Origin: Undibacterium sp.
GTDB taxonomy: Bacteria > Pseudomonadota > Gammaproteobacteria > Burkholderiales > Burkholderiaceae_D
Assembly: GCA_030645915.1 (NCBI GenBank)
Contig: JAUSNO010000030.1
Location: 1-64,000 of the forward strand
Reading direction: 5' to 3'
DNA length: 64,000 bases
Under the pieces are notes generated by a model. That model ran no database searches. It was not told where the DNA came from and saw only the letters and a list, made by a program, of their open reading frames with translations. Each line of letters begins with the position of its first letter. Position 1 is the first letter of the stretch. Shown in pieces: positions 10,023 to 56,392 of this stretch. Both the position numbers and the translations under genes were made by a program.

Positions 10023-10323
10023 AATCGCATCACCGCCCTTGCCACATAGTCGCGCATTCAAGGTTTGACTAACGACTTGCTTACCTGCTCTGGCAGGTCT
10101 GAAAAGCATTTTCAGGCATAGGATTGAGAATTAGCATATTTCCCCAAAATATCATTTTTTACATGAGAACACGCAATAGCCATGCGCCTTCTGGCAGCAT
10201 TTGCCTCTGAAAGGCCGATGGATATTGCGCTCTAAAAATAGGTTTTTAGAAGTTCCTTTTTAAATTTTTCCCTCTCATTCATATCCAGATGATGTATCAC
10301 AAGCACAGTCGTCATAACCGCGA
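10023..10323. other. Convergent intergenic region
   Basis: About 300 bp between the 3' ends of the GGDEF/EAL gene and the lysR-type gene. Apart from the degenerate hairpin repeat at 10171-10230, nothing recognisable was seen. Confidence 0.6.
10171..10230. repeat. Dispersed hairpin repeat, copy 1 (degenerate)
   Basis: Left arm ACGCAATAGCCATGCG (10171-10186); right arm GATGGATATTGCG (10217-10229). The arms pair imperfectly and the spacer includes CTGAAAGGC, as in other copies. It lies between two convergent genes and has no T-tract. It belongs to the family also seen at 15395, 17916, 20308, 36911 and 56334. Confidence 0.65.
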
Positions 10324-11241
10324 TCAGTTCGGCAAGACATGTGGCCGCAACACCTCAGATACCCAATGCATGAAGCTTTGCGTACGTTTTGGCAGGTGCC
10401 GGCGGTTGGCATACAGGAGGGTGAGCGGCATCGCCTCCGCTAAATAGCCATCCAGAATCTTCACCAATTTACCCTGTTCCAACAATGTTCCAAGGCCGAT
10501 TTCTGGCGCCTGAATGATGCCTAAGCCCGCAACGCAGGCCGCCTGATACGCATCACTGTTGTTGACAGTGATGCTGCCTGTCATTTCCTGCCTCTTGTTT
10601 TGCACTTTATGCTGAAGATAAACCTGATATTCAAAGCCGACTGGTTTGCCGCCAAAGTTGCTGGCGTAATGGATCAGCCTGTGCTGAGTTAACTCCTCTA
10701 TCGTTTGCGGCACGCCATAGCGTGCGAGGTATTCAGGACTAGCGCAATTGATCTGGCGCAAATAGCCCAGAGGTCTGGCGATTAAGCTCTGATCGATCAG
10801 CTGGCCCACTCTGATCACGCAATCGAAGCCTTCTCGCACCACATCCACCCGCCTGTCGGTGCATGACAGTTCTATCTCCACTTTTGGGTGTAATTGTAAA
10901 AACTGTGGCAATTGCGGGATGATGATGTTTCTGGCGATAGCGTTCGGCAAATCCACCCGCAAGCGCCCGCTGATCTCACGCTCTCCTTGTTGAAACAAGG
11001 TCTGCAGCTCTTCCATATCGGCCAGCATATCTTTGCTGCGCTCATAAAATATGAGTCCGTCCTGCGTCATCTGTACGCTACGCGTGGTGCGATGCAGGAG
11101 ACGCGTCGCCAACAGAATTTCCAGCTGTTTGATGGCCGTTGAAACACTCGCCTTCGGCAATCCCAAGCTGTCAGCCGCCTGAGTAAAACTGGCCAGTTCG
11201 GCGACCCGCACGAAAATTTGCATGGCTTCTACATGATGCAT
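10324..11241 (-). CDS. LysR-family transcriptional regulator
   Basis: 305 residues, the usual size. The N-terminal winged helix-turn-helix spans about 1-60 (MQIFVRVAELASFTQAADSL, then KASVSTAIKQLE and LLHRTTRSVQMT), followed by a linker helix and a type-2 periplasmic-binding-like effector domain. It is transcribed divergently from the short-chain dehydrogenase at 11391, with 149 bp between start codons, so that gene is the expected target. The subfamily resembles LysR regulators of quinone, aldehyde or SDR reductases, but no effector can be named. Confidence 0.92.
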   Translation of the reverse strand: MHHVEAMQIFVRVAELASFTQAADSLGLPKASVSTAIKQLEILLATRLLHRTTRSVQMTQDGLIFYERSKDMLADMEELQTLFQQGEREISGRLRVDLPNAIARNIIIPQLPQFLQLHPKVEIELSCTDRRVDVVREGFDCVIRVGQLIDQSLIARPLGYLRQINCASPEYLARYGVPQTIEELTQHRLIHYASNFGGKPVGFEYQVYLQHKVQNKRQEMTGSITVNNSDAYQAACVAGLGIIQAPEIGLGTLLEQGKLVKILDGYLAEAMPLTLLYANRRHLPKRTQSFMHWVSEVLRPHVLPN

Positions 11242-11264
11242 CGAGATAATCCGGTTGATTTTAT

Positions 11265-11283
11265 TGTTCCGATTAAGCGAACA
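11265..11283. promoter_or_regulatory. Candidate LysR operator
   Basis: TGTTC-N9-GAACA (11265-11283) is a short interrupted inverted repeat containing a T-N11-A core, as LysR-family proteins usually bind. It lies 24 bp upstream of the lysR start codon in the divergent region, the normal place for autoregulation and activation of the SDR gene. Confidence 0.35.
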
Positions 11284-11390
11284 GTGCGATCATTTTACCC
11301 ATCTTTATCTCCAATTAGCCAGGCTATAAACTAGCCTTACCCGATATGGCTTGAGTACAGGCAAACGTCAATTCACCAGGAGCTACAAAA

Positions 11391-12149
11391 ATGAAACAGA
11401 AAATAGCCTTAATCACCGGCGGCAGTCGCGGCCTGGGCAAAAGTGCCGCATTGACACTGTCAGCACAAGGCGTCGATATCATTCTTACCTATCAAACCAG
11501 GCATGCAGAAGCATTGGCTGTTGTCGCAGAGATCGCAGCGATGGGCCGCAGCGCCGTGGCGCTGCAACTTGATGTCAGCAAGGCCGGCACGTTTGCCGCG
11601 TTTGTAGCAGCATTACATCAGGCACTTGAGCAAACCTGGCAGCGCAAGGATTTCGATTTTCTGCTCAATAACGCCGGCATCGGTGTCCATGCAGCCTTTG
11701 CCGATACCACGGAAGCGCAGTTTGATCAGTTGGTGAACATTCAGTTTAAGGGCGTGTTCTTTTTGACTCAGGCACTTTTGCCACTGATTGCAGATCATGG
11801 TCGCATCCTCAATGTATCGACTGGCTTGACCCGGTTTACGCTACCTGGTTTTGCCGCCTATGCCACCATGAAAGGGGCGATCGAGGTGCTGACCAAATAT
11901 CTCGCCAAAGAACTGGGCGCGCGCGGCATAACGGTTAACGTAATCGCGCCAGGGGCGATAGAGACTGATTTTGGTGGTGGTGCGGTCAGGGATAATGCAC
12001 AGATGAACGCCTTTGTCGCAGGCCAGACGGCATTGGGCAGAACCGGCTTGCCAGACGATATAGGTGGCGCCATTGCGGCCCTGTTATCCGACCATAGCGG
12101 CTGGATCAATGCGCAGCGCATCGAGGTATCCGGCGGCATGTTTATTTGA
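11391..12149 (+). CDS. Short-chain dehydrogenase/reductase (SDR)
   Basis: 252 residues; AGGAG at 11379-11383 supports the ATG. It shows the classical SDR pattern: TGGSRGLGKS nucleotide-binding motif (residues 9-18), NNAG, a catalytic Ser in LNVSTGL, YATMKGA as YxxxK, and an IAPGAIETDF segment. The Rossmann fold uses NAD(P)H to reduce a carbonyl or oxidise an alcohol; the substrate is not visible. It is divergent from, and probably controlled by, the adjacent LysR protein. A terminator follows closely, so it is likely a single-gene unit. Confidence 0.92.
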   Translation: MKQKIALITGGSRGLGKSAALTLSAQGVDIILTYQTRHAEALAVVAEIAAMGRSAVALQLDVSKAGTFAAFVAALHQALEQTWQRKDFDFLLNNAGIGVHAAFADTTEAQFDQLVNIQFKGVFFLTQALLPLIADHGRILNVSTGLTRFTLPGFAAYATMKGAIEVLTKYLAKELGARGITVNVIAPGAIETDFGGGAVRDNAQMNAFVAGQTALGRTGLPDDIGGAIAALLSDHSGWINAQRIEVSGGMFI

Positions 12150-12205
12150 GTTAGCTCAGATACACCATCGAACAGCGATGAACAACGCTAGCTGCTGATA
12201 GGCAA

Positions 12206-12244
12206 CGCGCCCGTGATTGCGTTTCCCGGGCGCGCTGATTTTTT
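12206..12244 (+). terminator. Rho-independent terminator after the SDR gene
   Basis: CGCGCCCG (12206-12213) pairs with CGGGCGCG (12227-12234), followed by CTGA and six T (12239-12244). It sits 56 bp after the SDR stop, between convergent genes. Confidence 0.85.
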
Positions 12245-12285
12245 AACGCCTCTATTCACAAAACTATCAAAACAGCGCTTAGTGC

Positions 12286-12885
12286 TTACTCTTTCTCACC
12301 TAACAGTAAGCGCTTCAATTTGGGATCGACTACGTTATCCCCCAACCAAATTCGCAGAATCGCATGCATCGTGAGATCATCTTTAAGCGTCTCGCCAATT
12401 TGCTTGCCATTCGATCTAAATACAGTGCCTTTATTTCGGCTCCAGTCGATAGTCATGACATCACCGACCTTCCAGTCACCTATCGCCGCGAATCCTTCCC
12501 CCAATGCCAATAATTGGGTAAGAAGCTGATTGCGTTCTTCTTTGCTGGTGCTTGTGCGGATGTCAGCCAAAAAACGCCGGCTCATGAGCTCACTTTCAAC
12601 CTCCTTAAGCATCACCAACTTCAACCGTACCGGTCCTGTGGACGCAAACAATTCTTGTTGAGTCGACACCGCTTTCGGCAAGTATACGGCGATCGCAAAT
12701 ATCTTCACCCTTCGGATTAAATGGATGCCATTTCCATTGGGTACCAGCGTCTTTCCATCAACCTGAATTGCCTCGTCAAAAATAAGATTACTATCCTTGG
12801 CCGCTAATGACAAGCCAGGTAAGCTGAGGAAAAAACACACGCATGTGGCGAATATGGCTCGCCTTAATTGCTGAATAGTTTTCAT
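12286..12885 (-). CDS. Periplasmic chalcone isomerase-like protein
   Basis: 199 residues from the ATG at 12885; the frame is open to a TTG at 12930 that overlaps the upstream gene, but the ATG gives a clean signal peptide (about residues 1-28, ending SLAA). The mature part matches the bacterial chalcone-isomerase-like family: IHLIRRVKIFAIAVYLP near the start, then a GDVMTIDW strand and LKDDLTMHAILRIWLGDN at the end. In bacteria this fold usually lacks flavonoid activity and is thought to bind fatty-acid-like ligands (family knowledge). It follows the outer-membrane protein gene and probably shares its transcript. Confidence 0.8.
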   Translation of the reverse strand: MKTIQQLRRAIFATCVCFFLSLPGLSLAAKDSNLIFDEAIQVDGKTLVPNGNGIHLIRRVKIFAIAVYLPKAVSTQQELFASTGPVRLKLVMLKEVESELMSRRFLADIRTSTSKEERNQLLTQLLALGEGFAAIGDWKVGDVMTIDWSRNKGTVFRSNGKQIGETLKDDLTMHAILRIWLGDNVVDPKLKRLLLGEKE

Positions 12886-12926
12886 AGTTGTCTCATGTAA
12901 TTGTGGCTTTTTCCAATATTCAAACA

Positions 12927-13964
12927 TCAAAACAATCTACTTAGGGTTACCAGCGCCAATCCACCTTCTGGTCTTGCGCGAGCAGAAAACTCTTTCAGGT
13001 ACTTAAGGTCGATCTGTGTTTTCAAATCATCCGTCTGATAGCTAAAAATCGGTCCCAGCGCAGAGACTCTTGCCCTATTTCCACCAACTAAAGTGAGCGC
13101 AGTGGTATTGCCAGGGTCTTTATCGTCGCTAGTCTGCTGCAAATAATATCCTTGAATACCACCTTTGAAATTATTTGAAAACTGATAGCTGCCAACATAT
13201 TCAGCATGAATATATTGTCCGGACTTGTAATTGGTTTCGCGATTGGCGGTGCTGTAGTTATAACTTATCGATGCCGCCACATCAAAACCTGATTCGGTTG
13301 ACCATGCGGCAGAAACCAATGGGCGGATGGAGTAGGAATTCAATCCTAAATTGACCTGGCTATTGCGATCAAAAGAACCTGTAGGCAAATCCACATTCAT
13401 CGCGGCGACGAGCGACAAGCTTTCAAATTTCCAGCCGATAAAACCAGCAACTTCCACATCGCCAATACCGCGTTTTTCTCCACTGGCGGCATGAGACGCT
13501 TCAGAAGAGATTTTTTGTTGTAGCGCTAATGGCAAAGGTGTCGTAACCGATATTGTCACATCACGGCTTTTATTCAGCAAAGGAACGGCAATATAACTGC
13601 CTATACGCCCGCCAAAAACCGGATCCTCACTAACATAGACCAATTTTGGCACCAGTGCATCGACCTTGATACGTGCGTTAACCCGACCATTGATAGGAAT
13701 AGCAATTCCCGGGATCGACTTATTGAATGAAAAGTCCTTGCCACTACTGTCTTTGACGCTATCAGCGCGATAACTCGGCGCAATGATTTGTCCGTATAGA
13801 CCTGAGAGCGGCAAGATCGCGGAATCCAATCCCCACACGCCCATCGGGACGGCCAGTTCATTGTTTTCAGCAGCAAGGGCTGGGTTTGATAAATAACATG
13901 CGCAAAGCAATACGGAAGCCGAAATGAGACGCGGACGATTCAAAAGGGAATTTGGGGTGATCAT
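12927..13964 (-). CDS. SphA/MetA-type outer-membrane channel-like protein
   Basis: 345 residues from the ATG at 13964 (AGGA nine bases upstream); an upstream in-frame start lacks this. The signal peptide covers about residues 1-31 (ending NPALA). The rest is beta-rich with alternating aromatic strands and ends in SRLF, the terminal-Phe signature recognised by the BAM complex. The pattern resembles the phenol-degradation MetA/SphA family of outer-membrane proteins, thought to take up hydrophobic compounds (family knowledge). The chalcone-isomerase-like gene follows within 45 bp. A joint role in handling a hydrophobic ligand is inference. Confidence 0.75.
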   Translation of the reverse strand: MITPNSLLNRPRLISASVLLCACYLSNPALAAENNELAVPMGVWGLDSAILPLSGLYGQIIAPSYRADSVKDSSGKDFSFNKSIPGIAIPINGRVNARIKVDALVPKLVYVSEDPVFGGRIGSYIAVPLLNKSRDVTISVTTPLPLALQQKISSEASHAASGEKRGIGDVEVAGFIGWKFESLSLVAAMNVDLPTGSFDRNSQVNLGLNSYSIRPLVSAAWSTESGFDVAASISYNYSTANRETNYKSGQYIHAEYVGSYQFSNNFKGGIQGYYLQQTSDDKDPGNTTALTLVGGNRARVSALGPIFSYQTDDLKTQIDLKYLKEFSARARPEGGLALVTLSRLF

Positions 13965-14009
13965 AATGTTTTTCCTGATTTTTAATAAATAAGTAGCAAG
14001 CAATTTCAA

Positions 14010-14556: not shown

Positions 14557-15213
14557 TTAATGCAAACTAGCCGCTGCCAGCTTTGCGCCAAACCAGATAA
14601 ACAACCAGCCGACTCCACCAGAGAGCCCGGCGGACAATCGCCTGCGCTTGCTGAAATTTTGCGCCATGCGCGCGCCCAGAAAAATCAAGGCCGATAGATA
14701 TACAGCGCTAAACACCATGATCACCGCGCTCAGGATCAGGAAAGGCACGGCCGGTGTCGGGTAATCGTGATCGATAAACTGCACAAAAAATGACAACAGG
14801 AAAAGTATCGCCTTGGGATTAAGCAAACTAATGAACAAGGCACGTCTGAACGGGTTTTGCATGTTGCCGGCGCTTTCGGGCGTCGCCACTATCGCCCGAT
14901 CTTTCCCGATCAATTTCCGGATTGCCGCCCAGATCAGATTACAGCCCAGCCAGGTCAGATACGCGGCGCCCGCATACTTCAGCAGCAAAAACAAAGCCGG
15001 ATAAGTGCGCAACAGACTGGCCGCGCCCAGGGCCGTTAACATCAACAAAATGGTATCGCCCAAAAAAACACCTAGCGCGCCCTTGTAACCGGCCCTGACT
15101 CCACGCGTAGTCGCCACCGCCAGCACATACAGCGAATTCGGGCCAGGTAATAGAACGATGCCCAAGGCACCCAGTACGTAAGTCCAAAGATCGGTAACGC
15201 CGTAAAAATTCAT
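14557..15213 (-). CDS. LysE/RhtB-family amino-acid exporter
   Basis: 218 residues from the ATG at 15213; an in-frame upstream start adds 15 polar residues unlike the family. The N-terminus carries LGIVLLPGPNSLYVL, the LysE/RhtB hallmark PGPN, followed by GVRAGYKGALGVFLGD and about six transmembrane segments. These inner-membrane proteins export amino acids or their lactones; the substrate cannot be deduced. The gene stands alone, with the hairpin repeat at 15395 upstream and the TetR gene beyond it. Confidence 0.92.
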   Translation of the reverse strand: MNFYGVTDLWTYVLGALGIVLLPGPNSLYVLAVATTRGVRAGYKGALGVFLGDTILLMLTALGAASLLRTYPALFLLLKYAGAAYLTWLGCNLIWAAIRKLIGKDRAIVATPESAGNMQNPFRRALFISLLNPKAILFLLSFFVQFIDHDYPTPAVPFLILSAVIMVFSAVYLSALIFLGARMAQNFSKRRRLSAGLSGGVGWLFIWFGAKLAAASLH

Positions 15214-15394
15214 GATAAATCCATTGATGTGGTAAGGACCCAAGCCCTCAGACCGCAAGCGAAATGCAGGCGAACATTGGTTCGGTTAAACAGCGTATTG
15301 CGCAAGGCGAGCATTATCCCATAGTCTTCTTTTGCACATGATGGCCCCGCAGATCAAGACCATCGATATAAACTCAATCTACGGCACCCCGCTG

Positions 15395-15453
15395 ACGCAA
15401 TATCCATGCGGGTTTGCGGGTACAGTGCCTCGAAACCCGCATGGATATTGCGT
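15395..15453. repeat. Dispersed hairpin repeat, copy 2 (perfect arms)
   Basis: The left arm (15395-15415, ACGCAATATCCATGCG plus GGTTT) and right arm (15433-15453) are exact 21-base reverse complements around a 17-base loop. The core N6 is ATATCC. It lies 3' of the TetR gene and 5' of the LysE-type gene, with no adjacent T-tract. Confidence 0.85.
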
Positions 15454-15504
15454 GCTGGCGGTAGTGCATTTTGATTTTTTAGCCTGTCAGGATGACAGGT
15501 CCTG

Positions 15505-16137
15505 CTAACGCTGCAAATACCCCAGCACTAGCTCGCCCAATTGCTGACGAAACTCTGCGCTGGCCACCTGCTGCGGTGCCGTCATCAAGCGCTGATACAG
15601 CAAGCCGTAAACTGCGGCATGCACGACGCCGGCTTGTTTGCCGGGATAACTGGCGATGTCACCACTGGCATCAAATGCCTGCTGCCAGACGTCAACAATG
15701 CTCTGATACAAATGTTGAAAAGCGGGCGCATCGGAAATTTTACGTTCCAGAAAAATCAGCGCCGACCACTCCTCCACCTTCTGTGTATGCAGCGCCACCA
15801 TCTGGTCGAGAATTGCATCAACCAACTCCACCAGTGTGGCGCCGCGTCTGGCTTCTATGCATGCCTGCATCTGTACGCCAGCTTGCCTAAAGCGCTGCTG
15901 AATGCCGTGCGCCGCAATCGATTTTTTATTCGGAAAATATTCATACAAGGTGCCCAAGCCTACTCCGGCAACCAGTGCAATATCGCGTATCGTCAGGCGC
16001 TCATATCCCTTCTCGACCAAAAGCCGAACAAAGGCGTCGATGATCGCCACTTGCGTCATCACCGAGCGTTGCTGCACAGGCTTACGGCGCAGTTTCAACG
16101 GGCTAACAGGGACAGGAATTACCGGGCGGACAGTCAA
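15505..16137 (-). CDS. TetR-family transcriptional regulator
   Basis: 210 residues. The N-terminal TetR helix-turn-helix is clear: IIDAFVRLLVEKGYERLTIRDIA, then GVGLGTLYEYFPNKKSI (about residues 30-75). The C-terminal ligand domain is less conserved. It is divergent from aidB, with 96 bp between start codons, so it probably represses aidB and perhaps itself. In acyl-CoA dehydrogenase regulons TetR proteins usually sense acyl-CoA esters (family knowledge); here the ligand is unknown. Confidence 0.93.
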   Translation of the reverse strand: MTVRPVIPVPVSPLKLRRKPVQQRSVMTQVAIIDAFVRLLVEKGYERLTIRDIALVAGVGLGTLYEYFPNKKSIAAHGIQQRFRQAGVQMQACIEARRGATLVELVDAILDQMVALHTQKVEEWSALIFLERKISDAPAFQHLYQSIVDVWQQAFDASGDIASYPGKQAGVVHAAVYGLLYQRLMTAPQQVASAEFRQQLGELVLGYLQR

Positions 16138-16233
16138 TTTAACTCACCTCAAAAGTCGAACATCCTGCATCCCGGGAAGGTCTACAATCGATTCAAAGAA
16201 ACCATTCATATACCACCATCACGGAGACGCATC

Positions 16234-17880
16234 ATGCCATGGCACACCCACGAGATTAGCAATCAGGTTCCGGATCTGCAAGACTACAATATTTTCAGTA
16301 CTGACGTGGTATTGATGCAAGGGGTGGAACACGCTGGTGCCGCCTGGCATCATGCCGCCCTGCTGCGTTACGGCGCCGAGCTAGGCAGCAAAGAAGTATT
16401 GCAACTGGGCGAGCTGGCCAATCGCCATCTGCCCGAGCTGCAAACGCACGACCGCATCGGCCGTCGCATCGACCAGGTTGAATTCCATCCCAGTTGGCAC
16501 CAGCTGCTTGGATTGCTACGCAAGGAAGGCCTGCAAGCGTTGCCCTGGATGCAGCCACAAGCCGGCGCACATGTAGCACGTGCGGCTGGCTACTACCTGC
16601 AATCGCAAGTGGAATCCGGCTCGCTATGCCCCACCACCATGACCTTCGCCGCCATACCCGTATTACAAAATGAGCCGGCGCTGTTTGCCCAGCTCAAGGA
16701 CAAACTCTATGCGCGGCATCACGATGCACGCGATCTGCCTATCGCGCAAAAAACCTCGATCATGATAGGCATGGGCATGACCGAAAAACAGGGCGGATCG
16801 GATGTGCGCAGCAACAGCACCGTCGCCGTGCCGGTAACCACAGGCGGGCGCGGCGCAGAGTATTTGCTGACTGGCCACAAATGGTTTTTCTCGGCACCGA
16901 TGTGCGATGCGCATCTGATACTGGCGCGCAGCGAGACTGGCCTGTCCTGCTTCTTCGTGCCACGCTGGAAACCCGATGGCAGCAAAAATGCCGTACTGGT
17001 GCAAAGGTTAAAAGAAAAACTGGGCAACCGTTCCAACTCCAGCAGCGAAGTCGAATTCCAGGACGCGTTAGGCATCATGGTCGGTGAAGAAGGCCGCGGC
17101 ATTCCCACCATCATAGAAATGGCCAACCTCACGCGGCTAGATTGCGTGATCGGCAGTGCGGCGTTGATGCGCCACGCGCTCACGCAAGCCGTCCACCATG
17201 CACGCCACCGCAGCGCCTTTGGCCGCCTGCTGGCAGAACAGCCGCTGATGCGCAATGTGCTGGCCGATCTGGCTCTGGAGAGCGAAGCCGCCACTTTACT
17301 AATGCTAAAACTCGCCAGCGCACTCGATGCGCCGGACGATCCGCTACAGCGCGCCTGGAAGCGCATCATCACGCCCGCAGCCAAGTTCTGGATCTGCAAA
17401 CGCGCACTGGAATTTACCGGCGAATGCATGGAAGTCTGGGGCGGCAACGGCTATGTAGAAAGCAGCCCCATGGCGCGCATGTATCGCGAGGCGCCGGTCA
17501 ACTCGATCTGGGAAGGTTCGGGCAATGTCATGTGCCTCGATGTCCTGCGCGCCATCGCGCGCGATCCGCAAGGTATGCAACTCTTGCTGGAACAATTGGA
17601 TCATTCACCAGCGCAGGCAGTGCAAGAACTTAGCAAGGATATCCGCAAAGATTTGAGCGCTGCGCCAGAGCAGCAAGAAATGCTGGCCCGTCGCTTCACG
17701 CAAAAACTGGTGCTGGCGATGCAGGGGCATCTGATGCAAGAGCAAGCCCCGCCAGAAATTGCCGAGGCATTTATCCGCAGCAGATTGGATGCCGCGTGCG
17801 GCCGCATCTACGGCACACTCAGCACCGACTGCGACGTCAGCCTGCAACAGCAGATACTGGAACGCGCCTGGCCGCGCTGA
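16234..17880 (+). CDS. aidB: AidB-type acyl-CoA dehydrogenase
   Basis: 548 residues from the ATG at 16234, preceded by GGAGA at 16222. The frame is open much further upstream, but only across the divergent tetR gene. It closely follows AidB: WHTHEISNQVPDLQDYNIFSTD at the N-terminus, GSLCPTTMTFAAIP, the flavin-binding GMGMTEKQGGSDVRSN, LTGHKWFFS, KLGNRSNSSSEVEFQDA, and EVWGGNGYVE and NSIWEGSGNVMCLDVLR near the C-terminus. AidB is a tetrameric FAD protein of the acyl-CoA dehydrogenase superfamily, associated in E. coli with protection from alkylation damage. Here it has its own divergent TetR regulator rather than an Ada context, so its trigger may differ. Confidence 0.93.
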   Translation: MPWHTHEISNQVPDLQDYNIFSTDVVLMQGVEHAGAAWHHAALLRYGAELGSKEVLQLGELANRHLPELQTHDRIGRRIDQVEFHPSWHQLLGLLRKEGLQALPWMQPQAGAHVARAAGYYLQSQVESGSLCPTTMTFAAIPVLQNEPALFAQLKDKLYARHHDARDLPIAQKTSIMIGMGMTEKQGGSDVRSNSTVAVPVTTGGRGAEYLLTGHKWFFSAPMCDAHLILARSETGLSCFFVPRWKPDGSKNAVLVQRLKEKLGNRSNSSSEVEFQDALGIMVGEEGRGIPTIIEMANLTRLDCVIGSAALMRHALTQAVHHARHRSAFGRLLAEQPLMRNVLADLALESEAATLLMLKLASALDAPDDPLQRAWKRIITPAAKFWICKRALEFTGECMEVWGGNGYVESSPMARMYREAPVNSIWEGSGNVMCLDVLRAIARDPQGMQLLLEQLDHSPAQAVQELSKDIRKDLSAAPEQQEMLARRFTQKLVLAMQGHLMQEQAPPEIAEAFIRSRLDAACGRIYGTLSTDCDVSLQQQILERAWPR

Positions 17881-17915
17881 GGCGGAGAAGTAGTTGAAAT
17901 TTCAAATAGAGGCAG

Positions 17916-17988
17916 GCCCACCACGCACTGTTCATGCGCCTTGCAGACCAACATGCCTGAAGAAGCGCATGAACAGTGCGCGGTGGGC
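17916..17988. repeat. Dispersed hairpin repeat, copy 3
   Basis: The left arm 17916-17939 (GCCCACC then ACGCACTGTTCATGCG) and right arm 17965-17988 pair at 23 of 24 positions. The core N6 is CTGTTC, matched by GAACAG on the other arm, different from copy 2 but still fully paired. It lies between the convergent aidB and pbpC genes. Confidence 0.85.
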
Positions 17989-18002
17989 GTACCACTTTTC
18001 AG

Positions 18003-20246
18003 TTATTTGGGTCTTGGCGATTCAAGCTGTATCTTTTTTTGTTTCACCGCCTTGCCAGATGGCGCATCTATCCTCACCAGCGCCCCACGCACTTCAAATC
18101 GAATCTGATCCAGCACCAATCCCTTGTCATCAATCAGCTGCAACAGATGCTTGCCGGGCCAGGGCATCCAGTCGATGCTGAGCGCGGTCGGATTTGCCTT
18201 GTTTGTGTTGACGGAAGCCTTGCCATCGAGCAGCCACATTGCCTGTTTTACGCCCTGCGCGGCAAAGCGTATGCGCTGGCGCTCTGGCGGGATGTCCGGA
18301 TCGATCGCGACCAGCATGCCCGCGGTCGGATAGCGGATGACGGGACGTATCTGGTCAGGCCGCGCGAAACTGATCTTGCTTTGCTCGGTACCCGGCAAAA
18401 AATATTCCGTACGTCGCGCTTCCAGCTGCGCCTCATACTCTATCGCCTGAGTGACGACGCCGGCCGGAGCGATGTTGGCAGCGCCATTCTTTTCATTGCC
18501 TTTTTGCGCCACCCTGTGCTGGTGCAGATACTGCATGACTTCCTGCCAGACGGGTGCTGCGCCTGTCACGCCAGAGACATCCCACATCGGCGCGCCGGAG
18601 GCATTGCCAACCCAGACACCGACCGTATACCGATCCGAATAACCGATGCACCAGTTGTCGCGCATGTCCTTGGATGTGCCGGTCTTCACCGCCGACCAGA
18701 TGCGCGTGGATAAGGCGTTTTCCAAGCCGAAGGTGCTGGCCCGTGCTGCGCGGTCGGACAAGATATCGCTGACGATGAAAGCCGCCGCCGGGTCCATCAC
18801 CCTGGTCAATACGAGCTTAAGCGGATCTGTATCGCTGCTGCGCAAGGCAGAAAACTGCCCCTGATTGGCTAGCGACCGGTAGGCGTTGGTCAGCGCCAGC
18901 AGGCTGACATCTGCGCTACCCAGCGCCAGGCTAAAACCATAATAGTCGCCTGATTCGCGCAAGCCAAAACCCAGTTGTTGCAGGCGTTGAAAAAACAGTT
19001 CCGGCGTCACCGTCACCAGCGTGCGCACCGCAGGAATATTAAGTGAAGAACCGAGCGCCGTGCGTACGCTCACCAGTCCCTTAAAATGCTTGTCGTAGTT
19101 TTGCGGAATATACAGGCCGGATGCGGTCGGCAGATTCACGGCAGAATCATCTAGGATAGAGGCAGCGGTCAGCCATTTTTTTTCTATCGCCAGCTCATAT
19201 AAAAAGGGCTTCAGAGTCGAGCCGGCCTGGCGCAAGGCTAGCACGCCATCCACCTGATTGGCATCCGACAAAGCGCCGCTAGAACCCACCCAGACCAGCA
19301 CATCACCGCTCTGATTGTCGATCGCCAATACCGCACCGTCTTCAATATTTCGGTCGACCAGGGCTGATAACTGGCGCACCAAGGCATCTCTGGCAAATTG
19401 CTGTGTACTGGCGTCCAAGGTGGAATGTAGCAATAGCGGGCCCTTATTGGCAGCAAACAATTTGCGCGCCAAGTGCGGTGCCAGCTGCGGCCCGCTGATC
19501 GTGCGCGCCACATCCGATTTCGCCGTCAGACGGGCGAAATACTGCGTTGTCTGCCCTGCCAGATTGGCGCAAAACTGCGGTAAAGCTTGCTCCTTTAATG
19601 TGGCGCAGGCGCGCTCCGCCACTTTGGTGACGCTGGCATTGGGCCCGCGTATCAACGCCACCGCAATCGCCGCCTCGATTTTATCCAGACCGCTGGGGTG
19701 TTTATCAAACATCACGCGCGACAGGGCATGTACGCCCACCAGTTCGCCCTTAAACGCCACCAGGTTCAGATAAGCTTCCAGTATCTGATCCTTGCGCCAG
19801 CTACGCTCCAGCCACTGCGCCACCACCGCCTGCGTGATCTTTTGGCCCGCGCTGCGGGCAGCAGACTTGCGCCGCAAATCCTCTTCCAGCAAGCCCGCCA
19901 GCTGCATGGTAATGGTCGATGCGCCACGGGTCTTCTTATTCCACAAATTACCCCAGGCCGCCCCCGCCACGGCATTCCAATCCACCCCGCCGTGCTGGTA
20001 AAAACGCTTGTCTTCCGAAGCGACCAAAGCCATGCGCAAGGCAGGTGAAACATCCTCAAGCTTCACCCACGCCAGCTTGCGCTCCTTGGGGTTAATGCGC
20101 AGCTGGTGAATGGAGATGCCATTACGGTCGGTCAGGATGGCATCTGAGGAGAGGAAGTTTTGCTGGACTTCTTTGAATGTGGGTATGGCTTGCGCGCTGT
20201 GGTGGCAACTCAGCAAAAAAACGATGAATAGAAATCGGATGTGCAT
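18003..20246 (-). CDS. pbpC: Penicillin-binding protein 1C
   Basis: 747 residues from the ATG at 20246, the start that gives a proper signal anchor (MHIRFLFIVFLLSC); upstream in-frame ATGs lack this and no start has a strong ribosome site. Order: GT51 transglycosylase (EDKRFYQHGGVDW and GASTITMQLAG), transpeptidase with SxxK in GSTLKPF, SxN in SSLNIPA and KTGTS, and a C-terminal BiPBP_C-type domain rich in beta strands. It polymerises and may cross-link peptidoglycan at the inner membrane. It lies downstream of the alpha-2-macroglobulin gene, a pairing well known in proteobacteria, but here with a DUF2971 gene between them. Confidence 0.95.
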   Translation of the reverse strand: MHIRFLFIVFLLSCHHSAQAIPTFKEVQQNFLSSDAILTDRNGISIHQLRINPKERKLAWVKLEDVSPALRMALVASEDKRFYQHGGVDWNAVAGAAWGNLWNKKTRGASTITMQLAGLLEEDLRRKSAARSAGQKITQAVVAQWLERSWRKDQILEAYLNLVAFKGELVGVHALSRVMFDKHPSGLDKIEAAIAVALIRGPNASVTKVAERACATLKEQALPQFCANLAGQTTQYFARLTAKSDVARTISGPQLAPHLARKLFAANKGPLLLHSTLDASTQQFARDALVRQLSALVDRNIEDGAVLAIDNQSGDVLVWVGSSGALSDANQVDGVLALRQAGSTLKPFLYELAIEKKWLTAASILDDSAVNLPTASGLYIPQNYDKHFKGLVSVRTALGSSLNIPAVRTLVTVTPELFFQRLQQLGFGLRESGDYYGFSLALGSADVSLLALTNAYRSLANQGQFSALRSSDTDPLKLVLTRVMDPAAAFIVSDILSDRAARASTFGLENALSTRIWSAVKTGTSKDMRDNWCIGYSDRYTVGVWVGNASGAPMWDVSGVTGAAPVWQEVMQYLHQHRVAQKGNEKNGAANIAPAGVVTQAIEYEAQLEARRTEYFLPGTEQSKISFARPDQIRPVIRYPTAGMLVAIDPDIPPERQRIRFAAQGVKQAMWLLDGKASVNTNKANPTALSIDWMPWPGKHLLQLIDDKGLVLDQIRFEVRGALVRIDAPSGKAVKQKKIQLESPRPK

Positions 20247-20307
20247 GGAGATCGAAATCATTGATATGGAGTTAAATGCGCACGAAAAAAACAATTTAAA
20301 AAAAATA

Positions 20308-20367
20308 ACGCAATATTCATGCGGGTTTTAAGAATATTTTGGCTTGTAAGGCGCATGGATATTGCGT
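20308..20367. repeat. Dispersed hairpin repeat, copy 4
   Basis: ACGCAATATTCATGCG (20308-20323) pairs with CGCATGGATATTGCGT (20352-20367) with one G-T type mismatch. It sits between the DUF2971 stop and the pbpC start, on the pbpC promoter side. Confidence 0.8.
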
Positions 20368-20403
20368 AACAAGTTTTTGTTTTTAATGATTTCGTAGATT
20401 GAA

Positions 20404-21213: not shown

Positions 21214-21263
21214 AATTCAAAGAATGTTTAATTTCATCGCATAGGCTGCATTTAAAACGTCAT

Positions 21264-36875: not shown

Positions 36876-36910
36876 CCAAGCAAGTTAATTAAAAAGTTAA
36901 CAAGCACCTA

Positions 36911-36983
36911 CGCCAGCACGCATGTTCCATGCGGCTTTGCGAGCATGTAGGCTGGAAAGGCGCATGGAACATGCGTGCTGGCG
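36911..36983. repeat. Dispersed hairpin repeat, copy 5 (perfect 23-bp arms)
   Basis: Left arm 36911-36933 and right arm 36961-36983 are exact reverse complements, reading CGCCAGC then ACGCATGTTCCATGCG. The core N6 is TGTTCC, again compensated on both arms. The loop is 27 bases. It lies downstream of the hypothetical gene and 180 bp before the quinone-reductase-like gene. Confidence 0.9.
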
Positions 36984-37164
36984 CTGCCTCATTTCAAAAT
37001 CAGAGCAAGCTGACTGAACAAAAGTGCATTTACGGCTGATCTAGCAGCCTGATCTGCGGCAAAAATTGGCAATTAATGACCAAAGAAAGGTTGAGAATAG
37101 TCAACCTAAAGCACTCTTAACTGTGCCAAGCTCATGGCAATGAATTTATCTTTTCAAACTTCCC

Positions 37165-37752
37165 ATGAGCAAACGCATACTTTTGATTCAAGGTCATCCT
37201 GATGACAGCCAACCTCACCTGTGCCACGCATTAGAAATTGCCTATGGCAGAGGGGCAGAATCTGTCGGACATGAAATCAAGCGCATCAACGTGGCCGCAC
37301 TCGATTTCCCTTTGCTGCGCAGCGAACAGGAATGGCAAAACGGACAATTGCCATCCACGCTTACCGAGTCACAAGATGCGATCAGATGGGCCGAGCATAT
37401 CGTCCTGTTTTTCCCCTTATGGCTAGGTGACATGCCTGCGCTGCTCAAAGGTTTTCTGGAACAGGTGGCGCGCCCGGGTTTTGCATTTTCGCGCGACGCC
37501 AAAAACCCTATGGCAGCAAAAGGCCTCACCGGCAGATCGGCGCGTCTGGTCGTTACCATGGGAATGCCGGCATCACTATATCGCTGGTACTTTAGAGCGC
37601 ATAGCATCAAATCACTTGAGCGCAATATTCTCGGCTTTGTAGGTATTGCGCCAGTCAACGATACATTGATCGGAATGACAGGGAACATGAAATCCACAAT
37701 GACAGAAAAATGGATGTCCCGGCTAGAAAAACTGGGTAATAAAGGAGAATGA
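37165..37752 (+). CDS. NAD(P)H quinone reductase-like flavodoxin-fold protein
   Basis: 195 residues with the flavodoxin-like pattern of the quinone-reductase/KefF type: ILLIQGHPDDSQPH at the start, FFPLWLGDMPALLKGFLEQV and LVVTMGMPASLYRWYFRAH. It probably transfers two electrons from NAD(P)H to quinones via FMN or FAD. The ribosome site is weak. It stands alone and is not part of an obvious operon. Confidence 0.85.
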   Translation: MSKRILLIQGHPDDSQPHLCHALEIAYGRGAESVGHEIKRINVAALDFPLLRSEQEWQNGQLPSTLTESQDAIRWAEHIVLFFPLWLGDMPALLKGFLEQVARPGFAFSRDAKNPMAAKGLTGRSARLVVTMGMPASLYRWYFRAHSIKSLERNILGFVGIAPVNDTLIGMTGNMKSTMTEKWMSRLEKLGNKGE

Positions 37753-42878: not shown

Positions 42879-42895
42879 TTAATGCTGAGCAAAAT

Positions 42896-48774: not shown

Positions 48775-48863
48775 TCGTGGCATTTACAACTTCAATTCTA
48801 AATGCACACTAGCCGAGTCAAACCGTTCAAGACAAGCTTCAATTAAAATTTTAGAGAATAATC

Positions 48864-50396: not shown

Positions 50397-50402
50397 ACCC
50401 TC

Positions 50403-50445
50403 AAAACCTCTCACTGAACCTCTTACTAAGTGAGAGGTTTTTTTT
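50403..50445 (+). terminator. Terminator after lysS
   Basis: AAAACCTCTCACT (50403-50415) pairs with AGTGAGAGGTTTT (50429-50441), and the T-run continues to 50445. Confidence 0.92.
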
Positions 50446-50463
50446 ACCCATTTTTTCAAACCC

Positions 50464-52245: not shown

Positions 52246-52280
52246 AAAAACCACTCAGCTATTGAATATGGGCTGAGTGG
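52244..52280 (-). terminator. Terminator for the FAD oxidoreductase gene (minus strand)
   Basis: CCACTCAGC (52251-52259) and GCTGAGTGG (52272-52280) form a stem. The run of seven A at 52244-52250 is a T-run only when read on the minus strand, so it ends the gene at 52318-53307. Confidence 0.8.
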
Positions 52281-52317
52281 CTATGCATTTACATCGACAA
52301 GCTCAATACAAAGCGAT

Positions 52318-53307
52318 TTATATTTCCTTGGCTAATGCCAAGGCACTTAAAAACGCATTTTCGACTCGCCCAACGCCTTCCAACTCAACCGCAAACCAAT
52401 CGCCACAAACGCCTATCCGCTGCTTTGCGTCCCACAGACAAGGCTCAGGCAATGGCTCTGTTGCCTGAGCAAATCGCCATCGGTGCGCTGCAGCGTGTAT
52501 CGCTTGTATCGGTGAACCTGTGGCTTCATGAAAGGCCTTGGTCAATTTATCTTTAGCGCGCTCAGCGTCGTCTTCAATATGCTCTTTGCTCCACGCTGCC
52601 GTTGCATGACAAACCCAGCGTTCACCGGCGCGATGATCCGGCTTGGACGTATCTCTGGAAATCCACCCGAGTCTGGAATGCGATACCCATGCACCGTCGT
52701 AAGGTAAATTAAGCGGCGTTTGAAATGCCAGCATCAAACTCCAGCACGGCTCCAAGTTAACTTTGCCTACTTTTTTAGAGAATGCCGAATGTACTTGCAA
52801 CAAGGGAGTAGCTTGCTCTGGTGGGATGGCAAGAATCACCGCATCAAATGGTCCCGCAGAGGCGGCAATTGGTACCATTTCAGATTTAACTGAAAGTAAC
52901 CATTGTTTTTCAAATTTTTCGAGCGCCACAACCTGCTGTTCAGTGCGTACATCGAGACCGTGCGCCAGCTGCTTTCCAAGAGAACTCATGCCTGGCACAG
53001 GTACGAAGCGTTTACTGGTGCGACCGGCTGCCGCTACCGCGCCACAGTCAAGGCTGACCAATTTACTTTCCCATGGCACTACCCAGCCTACCTTGCGCCA
53101 ATCGGCAATCTCTTTTTTAAAACGATCAGATGCTGCGGTGAAGTATTGCGCTCCATGATCAAAACCGCCAAACTCGGTAAGCCGCGTACTCATACGACCG
53201 CTTACTCCTGCGCTTTTTTCATAGACCGTGACGGTATGTCCTTGCGACTGTAATTGACGTGCTGCAGTCAAGCCGGAGATACCGGCCCCTACTATCGCTA
53301 TTTGCAT
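52318..53307 (-). CDS. FAD-dependent amine-oxidase-like oxidoreductase
   Basis: 329 residues from the ATG at 53307 (AGGA upstream); the longer frame adds 18 residues before the dinucleotide-binding motif. IAIVGAGISGLTAARQL (residues 3-19) is the FAD-binding motif, and GRMSTRL and FDHGAQYF follow, as in renalase and related FAD oxidoreductases. Its C-terminus contains GVCGDWF, near the flavin. The substrate is unknown. It is monocistronic, with terminators on both sides. Confidence 0.88.
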   Translation of the reverse strand: MQIAIVGAGISGLTAARQLQSQGHTVTVYEKSAGVSGRMSTRLTEFGGFDHGAQYFTAASDRFKKEIADWRKVGWVVPWESKLVSLDCGAVAAAGRTSKRFVPVPGMSSLGKQLAHGLDVRTEQQVVALEKFEKQWLLSVKSEMVPIAASAGPFDAVILAIPPEQATPLLQVHSAFSKKVGKVNLEPCWSLMLAFQTPLNLPYDGAWVSHSRLGWISRDTSKPDHRAGERWVCHATAAWSKEHIEDDAERAKDKLTKAFHEATGSPIQAIHAAAHRWRFAQATEPLPEPCLWDAKQRIGVCGDWFAVELEGVGRVENAFLSALALAKEI

Positions 53308-53337
53308 GTTAACTATCCTTTTCAAAGATGATCTAGC

Positions 53338-53372
53338 AAAAAAAAGCCTGCAAATTTTCATTGCAGGCTTTT
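53338..53372 (-). terminator. Terminator after the CBS-pair gene (minus strand)
   Basis: AAAAGCCTGCAA (53342-53353) pairs with TTGCAGGCTTTT (53361-53372); the eight A at 53338-53345 read as a T-run on the minus strand. It ends the CBS gene at 53396. Confidence 0.9.
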
Positions 53373-53395
53373 GGGGAACTAATTCTCGAATAACA

Positions 53396-53845
53396 TTATT
53401 CTTCGCTTTCTTCTACTGGCCAATCACGAATATAGGCCTTCAACATCTTATTTTCGAAACTCTGCGCTTCAAGCACTGCTCTTGCCACATCGTAAAATGA
53501 AATCACGCCAAGTAGCGTCTTGGCATCCATCACGGGAAGATAACGGGAATGTTTTTCCAGCATCATGCGCCGAACTTCGTTTACTTCGGTTTCTGGTGTG
53601 ACAGTAAGAGGATGATCGTCCATATACTTGCGGACAGTGCCTTGGCCAAGTGAGCCATTATTTTTATTAATTCCACGAATCACTTCACGGAAAGTCAAAA
53701 TGCCGACCAAATCGCCAAATTCCATCACGACCAACGAGCCAATATCCTTTTCTTCCATCACGCTGGCAGCTTCAGCGATGGGTGTGTCCGGTGTTACGGT
53801 AAAGAGAATATTACCTTTTACCTGAAGGATTTCCGAGACTTTCAT
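53396..53845 (-). CDS. CBS-domain pair protein
   Basis: 149 residues; AAGGGGG before the ATG. Two tandem CBS motifs fill it: TPDTPIAEAASVMEEKDIGSLVVM, then HPLTVTPETEVNEVRRMMLEKHSRYLPVMDAKTLLGVISFYDVAR. Such stand-alone pairs bind adenosine nucleotides and control a partner protein. No partner is adjacent; metY starts divergently. Confidence 0.93.
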   Translation of the reverse strand: MKVSEILQVKGNILFTVTPDTPIAEAASVMEEKDIGSLVVMEFGDLVGILTFREVIRGINKNNGSLGQGTVRKYMDDHPLTVTPETEVNEVRRMMLEKHSRYLPVMDAKTLLGVISFYDVARAVLEAQSFENKMLKAYIRDWPVEESEE

Positions 53846-54076
53846 GTTACCCCCTTAACGTTGTAGCTTTGCTGTTGATCTATTTATTTGCTTCTTTTTC
53901 CACAAAGAATTTCTTCCGCTTCCAATGTATCGCATGCATTGCAAAAAATCCAGCATTAGCAGAATGATCGTGTCGTTTCACAAAATAATTCATCCTGAAA
54001 CATAACAAAAAGCATCATTTTTCAAGTTCAAACGATGGTAGCATTACCGCATCAAAATTAGGAGAAAAACATCATC

Positions 54077-55387
54077 ATGAGCGGACCAAAATACCACGGT
54101 TTTGACACGATGTCGCTGCATGCCGGCGCAGCGCCAGATCCGGCAACTGGAGCACGGGCAACACCGATTTACCTTACTTCGTCGTTCGTCTTCAAAGACT
54201 CCGACCATGCCGCGTCCCTGTTTAATATGGAACGGTCCGGCCATGTATATTCTCGCATCTCCAATCCGACTAACGCCGTTTTGGAAGAACGTATCGCCGC
54301 ACTCGAAGGTGGGGTAGCAGGCCTCGCGGTCGCCAGCGGCCAGGCGGCCATGCATCTGGGTCTGGCAACCATCGCAGGCGCAGGGTCGCACGTGGTTGCG
54401 TCGCGCGCCTTGTATGGCGGCTCGCAAAACTTGCTGGCCTATACAATGAAGCGCTTTGGCATAGAGACTACTTTTGTGGACCCGCGCGATATGGATGCCT
54501 GGCGTAATGCCATCCGTCCGAACACCAAGGTTTTATTTGGCGAAACCTTGGGCAACCCCGGATTAGACGTACTCAACATCCCCGAAGTGGCCACCATCGC
54601 GCATGAGAATTATCTTCCGCTGATGCTCGACTCCACCTTCACGACACCTTATCTATTGCGCCCGTTTGATCACGGTGCAGACCTGATCTGTCATTCAGCC
54701 ACCAAATTTTTATGCGGGCACGGAACGGCTATCGGCGGTTTGCTAGTGGACGGCGGCACTTTCGACTGGCAAGAGGCCTATGAAAAGACCGGCCGTTTCG
54801 CCGAATTGTGCGAACCTTATGATGGATTTCATGGCATGGTCTTCGCGGAGGAATCGACGGTCGCTGCATTCTCCCTGCGTGCCAGACGTGAAGGGATGCG
54901 CGACTTTGGCGCAGCGATGAGCCCGCATAATGCCTTCGCCATCTTGCAGGGCATAGAAACGCTGGGCCTGCGCATGGACAGGCACGTCGCCAATGCGCGC
55001 AAAGTGGTCGACTTCCTGGTATCGCATCCGGCTGTAGCCTCGGTGTCTTACCCTGAATTAGAGACGCATCCTGACTATGAACTGGCAAAAACCTTGCTGC
55101 CAAAAGGCTGCGGTGCCGTGTTCTCGTTTAATATCAATGGCGACCGGGCGGCGGGACAGCGCTTTGTCGAAGCCTTAAAAATATTTTCGCATCTCGCCAA
55201 CGTCGGCGACGCTAAATCGCTGGTGATTCACCCTGCATCCACTACTCACTTCCGCGTGCCTAGCGAACAACTGGCGGCCTCGGGCATTGCAGAAGGCACC
55301 ATGCGCTTATCCATCGGGCTGGAAGATGTCGATGATCTGATTGAAGACTTGGCACGTGGCTTAAAAGCCGCTCAGAAAGGGGTATAA
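54077..55387 (+). CDS. metY: O-acetylhomoserine sulfhydrylase-type PLP enzyme
   Basis: 436 residues; AGGAGA at 54060-54065 supports the ATG. It is a Cys/Met-metabolism PLP enzyme with the lysine in SATKF (K210), SGQAAMHLGLATI, an upstream YSRISNPTNAVLEERIAALE and C-terminal SLVIHPASTTH. Its length and the extra loop fit MetY, which makes homocysteine from O-acetylhomoserine and sulfide, better than the shorter MetZ. An alpha/beta hydrolase gene starts one base after the stop. Confidence 0.88.
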   Translation: MSGPKYHGFDTMSLHAGAAPDPATGARATPIYLTSSFVFKDSDHAASLFNMERSGHVYSRISNPTNAVLEERIAALEGGVAGLAVASGQAAMHLGLATIAGAGSHVVASRALYGGSQNLLAYTMKRFGIETTFVDPRDMDAWRNAIRPNTKVLFGETLGNPGLDVLNIPEVATIAHENYLPLMLDSTFTTPYLLRPFDHGADLICHSATKFLCGHGTAIGGLLVDGGTFDWQEAYEKTGRFAELCEPYDGFHGMVFAEESTVAAFSLRARREGMRDFGAAMSPHNAFAILQGIETLGLRMDRHVANARKVVDFLVSHPAVASVSYPELETHPDYELAKTLLPKGCGAVFSFNINGDRAAGQRFVEALKIFSHLANVGDAKSLVIHPASTTHFRVPSEQLAASGIAEGTMRLSIGLEDVDDLIEDLARGLKAAQKGV

Positions 55388-55388
55388 G

Positions 55389-56195
55389 ATGCTATTGAAA
55401 ATGAATGGACAAGACGTCTATTGCTATACCGGCGGCAAAATTTTTAATCCCGCATTGCCCACCGTCGTATTTATTCATGGCGCGCAAAACGATCACTCGG
55501 TTTGGGTATTGCAAACGCGTTATTTCGCGCACCATGGCTTTAGCGTGCTGGCAGTTGATCTGCCTGGGCATGGCCGTAGCAAAGGCGACGCACTTAAAAG
55601 TATAGAGGAGATGGCGGCATGGATACTGGCTGTCATGGATGCAGCAGGCGTGCAAAGTGCCAGCCTGGTAGGCCACAGCATGGGTTCTCTGATCGCACTT
55701 GAAACCTGCCACAAGGCGCCGGAAAGAGTGGCCAGATTAGCCCTGGTTGGCATCGCCTATCCGATGAAGGTGTCGGAGGTTCTATTGAATGCCTCACGCG
55801 ATGAAGAGCAGACCGCCATCGACATGGTGAATATCTGGCAACACTCGACGATAGCGCAAAAACCATCCTGCCCGGGACCGGGTTTTTATGTCATGGGCGG
55901 CAGTCGACGCTTGATGCAGCGCATCTCCAAGATCAATCCGGAAAAAGTTTTCTTTACCGATTTCACTGCCTGCAACACCTATGCCAATGGCGAGCAAGCC
56001 GCCAGCACGGTGCCATGCCCTACCCTATTTGTGCTGGCCAAAAATGACATGATGACGCCACCCAAGGCCAGCACCCTGATCAGCAAAGCCATCCCGCATA
56101 GCAAGGTGACGCTGCTTGACAACTGCGGCCACGATATCATGGCAGAACAGCCGGATGCCCTATTGAGCGCACTCTTTTCATTTGCAAAAATTTGA
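55389..56195 (+). CDS. Alpha/beta hydrolase downstream of metY
   Basis: 268 residues. HGAQN (oxyanion region), GHSMGSL with the nucleophile Ser, an Asp in a KNDMMTP loop and His in NCGHDIM near the end make a complete triad. The fold fits esterases and related enzymes. It is directly coupled to metY, so a role near homoserine or methionine metabolism is possible, but it is too short for MetX. The substrate is unknown. Confidence 0.85.
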   Translation: MLLKMNGQDVYCYTGGKIFNPALPTVVFIHGAQNDHSVWVLQTRYFAHHGFSVLAVDLPGHGRSKGDALKSIEEMAAWILAVMDAAGVQSASLVGHSMGSLIALETCHKAPERVARLALVGIAYPMKVSEVLLNASRDEEQTAIDMVNIWQHSTIAQKPSCPGPGFYVMGGSRRLMQRISKINPEKVFFTDFTACNTYANGEQAASTVPCPTLFVLAKNDMMTPPKASTLISKAIPHSKVTLLDNCGHDIMAEQPDALLSALFSFAKI

Positions 56196-56215
56196 TTGCC
56201 GTTTAACCTGGCAAC

Positions 56216-56270
56216 AACGGTAGAAAACGTCTTGCTGTTGTCCGCCAGCGTAGCGGCAAGACCCGCCGTT
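56216..56270. other. Hairpin after the alpha/beta hydrolase gene
   Basis: AACGG (56216-56220) and CCGTT (56266-56270) enclose GTCTTG/CAAGAC (56229-56234 and 56257-56262) and CCGC/GCGG. It is an imperfect stem in the convergent gap, with no T-tract, and is distinct from the repeat family at 56334. Confidence 0.4.
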
Positions 56271-56333
56271 ATCTTGGCCACATGGACCGAAAGACGTTAG
56301 CGCTTGATAAAACCAACAATGCACACGGCTACC

Positions 56334-56392
56334 ACGCAATGCCCATGCCGCTTTCCAGCCACCCTGGCCTGCAGGGCGCATGGACATTGCGT
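56334..56392. repeat. Dispersed hairpin repeat, copy 6
   Basis: ACGCAATGCCCATGC (56334-56348) pairs with GCATGGACATTGCGT (56378-56392) at 14 of 15 positions. The core N6 is ATGCCC. It lies between the convergent hydrolase and DHH phosphoesterase genes. Confidence 0.8.

Follow-up and report, generated by a model that had tools for sequence, protein, structure and literature searches.

The window analysed here is a 64,000-nucleotide stretch of an Undibacterium sp. genome (assembly GCA_030645915.1, contig JAUSNO010000030.1, positions 1 to 64,000 of the forward strand), and it holds six copies of a palindromic repeat of ~111 nt whose members are dispersed over the intergenic regions of Undibacterium, a genus of freshwater bacteria. 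Six hairpins had been described in this window by an initial annotation made from the sequence alone, and all of them are present, at slightly shifted positions. We find a large family in the host genome, placed preferentially near gene 3' ends, in which the two arms match mainly through one shared self-complementary consensus and not through joint change. The six copies, given as core plus 25 nt per side, and the two genes that matter for the placement of one of them are as follows.

10146..10255, no strand assigned: copy 1, core 10171-10230 (60 nt), AT-rich-flank sub-type, in a convergent gap
14557-15258, minus strand: LeuE-like gene, neighbour of the copy at 15395
15370..15478, no strand assigned: copy 2, core 15395-15453, perfect 21-bp arms, in a divergent gap
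15541-17880, plus strand: acyl-CoA dehydrogenase gene, neighbour of the copy at 15395
17898..18006, no strand assigned: copy 3, core 17923-17981, in the convergent gap between the acyl-CoA dehydrogenase and PbpC-like genes
20283..20392, no strand assigned: copy 4, core 20308-20367 (60 nt), AT-rich-flank sub-type, between tandem minus-strand genes
36893..37001, no strand assigned: copy 5, core 36918-36976, perfect 23-bp arms
56309..56417, no strand assigned: copy 6, core 56334-56392, in a convergent gap

In the host genome (G000; 39 contigs, 4.17 Mb) we counted 128 exact occurrences of the arm pattern ACGCA-N6-ATGCG ... CGCAT-N6-TGCGT and none of its reversed control, so the six copies are not due to chance. 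The initial annotation had proposed a repeat family resembling REP (repetitive extragenic palindromic) sequences or BIMEs (bacterial interspersed mosaic elements), a proposal that would have fallen with few or no further copies; the many additional copies found genome-wide bear it out. A relaxed scan of 851,635 bases of the host genome (the window, the whole of contig C5 and stretches of C3, C6, C9, C10 and C12) returned 72 copies, to which a sequence model added two (L051:17156 and L049:9770). Copies score 28.7-86.4 bits on the better strand, and the few remaining matches reach ~16 bits or below. The contiguous samples C5 and C6 and the window, ~637 kb together, contain 26, 16 and 6 copies respectively, or ~75 per Mb, which extrapolates to about 300 copies in the host genome; the stretches of C9, C10 and C12, selected for holding exact matches, were left out of this density estimate. 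Rfam 15, at its gathering score, has no match in the window or in five host loci with copies.

The element extends further than the hairpin first described and has A/T-rich ends. Judged by column composition in the 59-nt class, conservation spans about -25 to +85 from the first core base and falls at about -26 and +86, and the unit consists of an A-tract, a GC arm, a core of 58-60 nt, a second GC arm and a T-tract. Read from one end to the other, it has an A-rich end, a GC outer arm, a CGCA-N7-TGCG dyad, a loop that contains an asymmetric GC-rich stem, the inverted dyad, another GC arm and a T-rich end. In a scan that allowed 54-65 nt, the 68 copies with two mismatches or fewer all had cores of 58-60 nt, 59 nt in 56 of them; by our arithmetic, 42 bp separate the dyad centres, and this spacing is near-constant. 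The arms rarely occur singly: of 134 arm matches, 117 fall inside listed copies, and copies added by the model account for another two. Conservation is symmetric, with terminal inverted repeats and defined ends as in miniature inverted-repeat transposable elements (MITEs), and the arrangement as an intergenic inverted doublet of high copy number is of the type seen in REPs and REPINs (REP doublets forming hairpins).

The outer parts are less uniform. In the 59-nt class the T content climbs to 75% at +75 to +77, and among the 72 copies a T-run of at least four follows the core in 43, an A-run of at least four precedes it in 38, and one or the other is found in 57. The layout of a bidirectional terminator, a GC hairpin and then a T-tract on both strands, is thus present in the majority of copies and not in every one. 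Several 60-nt copies, including those at 10171 and 20308 in the window, have AT-rich in place of GC-rich flanks. A 14-bp insert, CACTAGGCGGAGCG, lies within the outer arm, singly or in exact tandem runs that reach at least four units (for example at G000:C35:103558-103615); it has 42 matches in the genome, and on the 29 element sides listed it sits nearly always at the same point and accompanies eight different N6 words.

In the window itself, the absence of a T-tract reported at first does not hold: a T-run of 4-6 lies within 30 nt past the core in five copies and one of 3 in the sixth, while an A-run of 3-8 stands in the 30 nt ahead of the core in all six. The exact arms of 21 bp (15395) and 23 bp (annotated at 36911, core now from 36918) were verified. 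The claim that the N6 word changes to match in both arms is correct for three copies (15395, 17923 and 36918), but the other three (10171, 20308 and 56334) carry a one-base mismatch.

Using gene calls from a simple caller made for this analysis, we placed 68 of the 72 copies between two genes (26 convergent, 31 tandem and 11 divergent), with two copies inside a called gene and two unplaced. Among gaps of at least 100 bp, a copy is found in 25 of 52 convergent gaps and in 40 of 223 others (odds ratio 4.2, p = 1.7e-5). A copy lies within 160 nt of 53 of the 271 gene 3' ends with free space, and at these 53 ends the edge of the element lies a median of ~20 nt from the stop codon. Our calls for the six window copies give four convergent gaps, one tandem and one divergent, not three convergent and three tandem as first stated, the context of the copy at 36918 hinging on the reality of the open reading frame 37165-37752; nor do all six lie 3' of a gene, the copy at 15395 being flanked by the divergent LeuE-like and acyl-CoA dehydrogenase genes. 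The copies probably act as bidirectional terminators, because either strand would give a long hairpin and a U-rich tract near a stop codon. With a copy at about one in five of the free gene 3' ends analysed, the family may shape transcript ends genome-wide.

The initial annotation had read the matched arms as compensatory covariation, pointing to selection on the folded form or to spread by a mechanism that copies arms. In 59 copies, nearly every stem column pair matches the level obtained by random re-pairing of left and right arms. In 99 copies, a set partly made of copies chosen for the 14-bp insert or for a good score, an average of 22.00 of the 34 stem pairs are Watson-Crick in each copy, versus 21.61 +/- 0.30 after whole-arm re-pairing (p = 0.10). 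Per-pair association is close to zero, with z between -1.4 and 2.0 for the variable partner columns -13 to 18, and the loop-side partners 21/39, 23/37 and 24/36 are paired below chance. RNAalifold found no consensus pair in the aligned copies, and for this reason our search model R1 is sequence-only. Half-swapped chimeras fold as well as real cores (mean -32.2 kcal/mol, sd of means 0.70, versus -31.3 kcal/mol), and swapping the right arm alone gives -30.4 kcal/mol (sd 0.48), a cost of ~0.9 kcal/mol or ~1.9 sd. The proposed compensatory covariation is thus mostly unsupported, and selection on the fold is weak or indirect. This makes the family a warning case, in which a few copies of a palindromic repeat can mimic compensatory covariation when the arms share one consensus.

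A small pairing excess nevertheless remains; it is real, and comes from a minority of copies whose arms match perfectly. The pair counter recorded 65.1% paired cells versus 63.5 +/- 0.6 after shuffling (1 of 500 shuffles), a covariation score of 0.179 versus 0.161 (3 of 500) and 36 pairs changed on both sides versus 33.4 (21 of 500), the true register outscoring every slid register, an excess of a kind that relatedness of copies alone can produce. Over the 15 inner arm pairs the mean is 12.77 versus 12.56 (p = 0.019), with perfect arms in 24 copies where 10.8 are expected; N6 words are identical in 30 of the 99 copies (14.6 expected) and perfect 20-bp arms number 9 (1.9 expected). In relatives the excess over these 15 pairs is larger: 13.02 versus 12.09 in the set from isolate E14_maxbin.296 (E14; 52 copies) and 11.70 versus 11.05 in strain Jales W-56 (10 copies, p = 0.06), both sets drawn for the most part from a scan for the exact pattern, in which the arm ends are fixed and N6 is free, and 13.28 versus 12.50 in G155 (32 copies) and 13.35 versus 12.76 in G157 (20 copies), two genomes that share DNA and hence are not independent. 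Of two orthologous pairs in 85%-identical G155/G157 DNA, one has intact arms and diverged outer flanks, and in the other (L197:10783 versus L196:11397) one arm is altered and its partner unaltered. The picture is one of a minority of exactly matched copies, among them the 21- and 23-bp copies of the window, atop a population with near-independent arms. Spread by arm copying is possible for that minority. The earlier observation is thus partly confirmed, and its interpretation partly supported.

Variation among the copies is mosaic. The mutual information of variable columns has a mean z of 9.9 at 1-2 nt, 1.9 at 9-11 nt, 1.0 at 12-14 nt and 0.9 at 15-17 nt, and is about background past 18 nt, so that linkage between positions is lost within ~12-18 nt. 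Pairwise identity averages 0.61 and the nearest-neighbour median is 0.80 in the 99 copies. These nearest-neighbour values somewhat exceed those of mosaics of 45-nt blocks, and some genealogical structure is therefore left. Exchange between copies would account for the mosaic pattern, and linkage decay this fast in a 111-nt repeat offers a measurable system for sequence exchange among bacterial dispersed repeats. The near-linkage-equilibrium of the copies and the near-constant 42-bp dyad spacing are the unusual points of the family.

Model R1, at E <= 1e-4, matches 19 of 43 genomes of the genus and none of the remaining 24; counts take in both strands and are lower bounds, with stricter filters beyond 40 genomes. 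Large populations (at least 69-90 matches, both strands) occur in six of the 43, the host included, while two genomes have 12 matches and eleven have 1-4. Among 155 genomes of the bacterial family, surveyed at E <= 1e-6 with stricter filters and with 24 candidates per genome scored, three match, all of this genus, and the 43 other genera sampled give none (1 of 44 genera positive). Among the matches listed, the named genomes are mostly Undibacterium (isolate E14_maxbin.296, strain Jales W-56). Loci L127, L132 and L156, from two metagenome genomes labelled 'Burkholderiales bacterium' (C8_MAG_00021 and REEB395), are family members with 41-62 bits on the best strand, and restriction to the named genus is therefore unproven. 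Among the genomes searched so far, the family is found in and near the genus Undibacterium.

The arms differ between species as dialects. The commonest arm words are CTATCC, CTGTTC and ATACCC in the host, TATTCC and TATCCC in G155, G157 and E14, and GCTGG-type words in Jales W-56. The exact arm pattern proved misleading as a finder of relatives, since G085 has no exact match and at least 87 model matches.

Equivalent sites in relatives give some view of the history of single copies. At L034:8641 the element stands at the same place in the host, G155 and G157 with differing arm words, and G174 has there a weak, decayed-looking element of 18.6 bits. The gene pairs beside L034:3451, L034:5579 and L052:6540 are without an element in G172: with the model threshold relaxed to E <= 1, nothing is detected in the stretches of that genome that correspond to the L034 and L052 regions. 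Recombination sites or gene cassettes were also considered, for the near-identical blocks shared by G155 and G157, and were rejected; at the block junctions in G157 genes are interrupted and scraps are present, which looks like a chimeric assembly, and no inference was drawn from it.

The initial annotation had asked for a RAYT-like (REP-associated tyrosine) transposase near the copies. Our transposase search covered PF01797 only and found three such genes in the host genome. One of them, L018:1140-1910 on contig C3, looks REP-type by eye, although its frame ends early and its PF01797 match spans only positions 4-61 of 121. It is adjoined by inverted GTAGGGCGGGT...ACCCGC repeats, a GTAG-type REP pair distinct from the family studied here; a copy of the latter lies ~0.6 kb away, the GTAG repeats being nearer. 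No copy was found within ~1.5 kb of the other two genes (loci of 3.3 kb each), and the 72-copy alignment has no common GTAG or CGTC tag at the hairpin foot. Across the 43 genomes, nine PF01797 genes go with no element match in G119, twelve with none in G161 and ten with two in G143, while the six element-rich genomes have 1-4 such genes, G173 among them having 1. On the missing tag, the neighbouring genes and the genome counts, we rejected a RAYT origin.

By the features tested, this is a new family among dispersed terminator-like palindromic repeats, and it is not a RAYT REPIN. Intrinsic bidirectional terminators have an A-tract, a GC hairpin and a T-tract readable on both strands, which the Undibacterium elements share; ordinary terminators, however, share no sequence between loci, and these elements do. 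ERIC of enterobacteria, the 127-bp unit considered below, is likewise a long imperfect palindrome. In the literature on Undibacterium palindromic or intergenic repeats, judged from titles and the opening of abstracts, we found no description of the family. According to the available part of the source, SPRITE of Streptococcus pneumoniae has 28.1% GC, 30 copies in the genome examined and an 18-bp duplex followed by a U-rich tract (PMC3049150). As far as that excerpt describes SPRITE, the Undibacterium family resembles it as a dispersed terminator-like repeat with AAAA/TTTT ends, convergent enrichment and a position near gene 3' ends, with no target-site duplication or empty site found, and mostly confined to one species and near kin; compared by description only, it differs in its ~300 copies, GC-rich arms and longer two-sided palindrome (PMC3049150). 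The enterobacterial 127-bp repeat, with 30 to 711 copies among relatives in the excerpts available, is similar in size, in intergenic position and in variable copy number, and differs, again by description only, in host group (PMC10969869, PMC2759123). The portions available on REPs and REPINs describe inverted short-dyad doublets, intergenic and in hundreds of copies with a convergent and tandem preference, as here, and call compensatory changes common in REPIN hairpins (PMC3116915, PMC3733652); in the Undibacterium family such changes are weak, the GTAG/CGTC tag and an associated RAYT are missing, the unit is longer and single arms are few.

The reading we favour, and to which we would give about an even chance, is a ~111-nt palindromic repeat family of the SPRITE/ERIC kind. 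Its copies would act, or be tolerated, as bidirectional intrinsic terminators; they would have spread non-autonomously by some enzyme, long ago for most of them, and have diversified by mutation and short-tract exchange between copies. Both arms would follow one half-site consensus because of this mutation and exchange, and pairing would need no compensation within a copy. Several observations weigh against this reading. Divergent gaps hold 11 of the 68 placed copies, and a T-run of four after the core is missing in 29 of 72. Canonical terminators outside the element are not significantly rarer at element-bearing gene ends (8 of 53) than elsewhere (42 of 218; p = 0.56), a comparison biased by masking of the element. 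At L034:13354 the stop codon is followed first by a classical terminator and then by the element, and this terminator is also found in G155, G174 and G085, from which the element is absent, the absence in G085 being weak evidence as its copies are hard for the model. As for mobility, no base-exact empty site emerged at the compared sites, where flanks are too diverged, and a direct-repeat scan at the boundaries of the 72 copies gave no target-site duplication. Just 4 of the 99 copies reach an identity of 0.90 or more with another copy, and with so few near-identical copies recent transposition is not evident. Finally, the mosaic could also come from independent evolution under local sequence constraint.

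A different account, possible though on balance unlikely, takes the arm as a dyad binding site (CGCA-N7-TGCG) for a putative protein and the element as two such sites whose centres lie 42 bp, or about four helical turns, apart; the hairpin would be a by-product, and the N6 dialects would reflect a protein drifting between species. CGCA and ATGCG hardly vary whereas N6, in the middle of that stem, varies freely, a contrast not expected of a stem kept for its structure alone; the near-constant core length, the arms almost always in inverted pairs and the species dialects point the same way. Constant length, however, also follows from common descent, and the A/T tracts and the 3' placement are left unexplained. 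A more speculative version, which we hold to be distinctly doubtful, sees a population of paired protein-binding dyads four turns apart, kept near linkage equilibrium by exchange of 10-15-nt tracts and split into species dialects. If true, it would amount to a sexual population of hairpins in one chromosome, with template switching or gene conversion at stalled forks as the driving process and the putative binding protein co-evolving with it.

That a hairpin RNA or single-stranded DNA is maintained by compensatory selection seems improbable. The excess of the pair counter (65.1% versus 63.5 +/- 0.6), with covariation score and both-side changes above shuffles and the true register best, the identical N6 words (30 of 99 versus 14.6), the larger excess in E14 and G155 and the ~0.9 kcal/mol cost of a right-arm swap speak for it, but whole-arm re-pairing in the host genome loses almost nothing, half-swap chimeras fold as well as real copies, RNAalifold finds no pair, three loop-side partners fall below chance and the orthologous copy at L197:10783 changed in one arm. 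Still less probable are REPINs in the strict sense, inverted REP doublets moved by a RAYT: the inverted short-dyad doublets, the intergenic and 3' placement, the population-like variation and the three PF01797 genes fit, whereas the common tag is absent, the L018 gene has its own GTAG-type repeats and an early frame end, two PF01797 loci have no copy nearby, and gene counts (1-4 versus 9-12) do not track the elements. Paired DNA-uptake sequences doubling as terminators would be very improbable indeed, even if arms arranged as inverted pairs near the ends of genes, with dialects that differ between species, are reminiscent of the Neisseria case as outlined in the available part of PMC3049150. 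Arms in this family are nearly always paired, with just 17 of 134 outside the listed pairs, two of those in extra model copies, a figure for which no chance expectation was computed. Uptake sequences are mostly single sites, which also counts against that explanation.

Some further observations concern neighbouring repeats and other genomes. Matches in a Chloroflexota metagenome genome (isolate M_MetaBat97) were rejected as family members; this genome has its own ~100-nt dispersed palindromic repeat, which fits the arm pattern by chance and whose loci L115, L117, L120, L137, L141, L144, L148, L152, L155 and L163 look like one family. In G155 (L199:2150-12550) and G157 (L198:3980-14480), blocks of ~99-100% identity stand amid ~80%, some ending near elements; their junctions in G157 suggest either a chimeric assembly or a very recent exchange. 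Within the same G155 locus, at L199:3900-4110 and 11060-11300, tandem AGTCAAAAnCAG-like units lie by element copies together with a GTAGGTGCGATTA...TAATCGCAC palindrome. On host contig C9, a ~180-bp repeat of MITE-like look with inverted ends around AACCGAGAATTTCCATTGG (L052:6369-6550) adjoins an element copy; elsewhere it occurs at 18 places of 70-87% identity in G172, at two of 92-96% in G174 and at one in G085.

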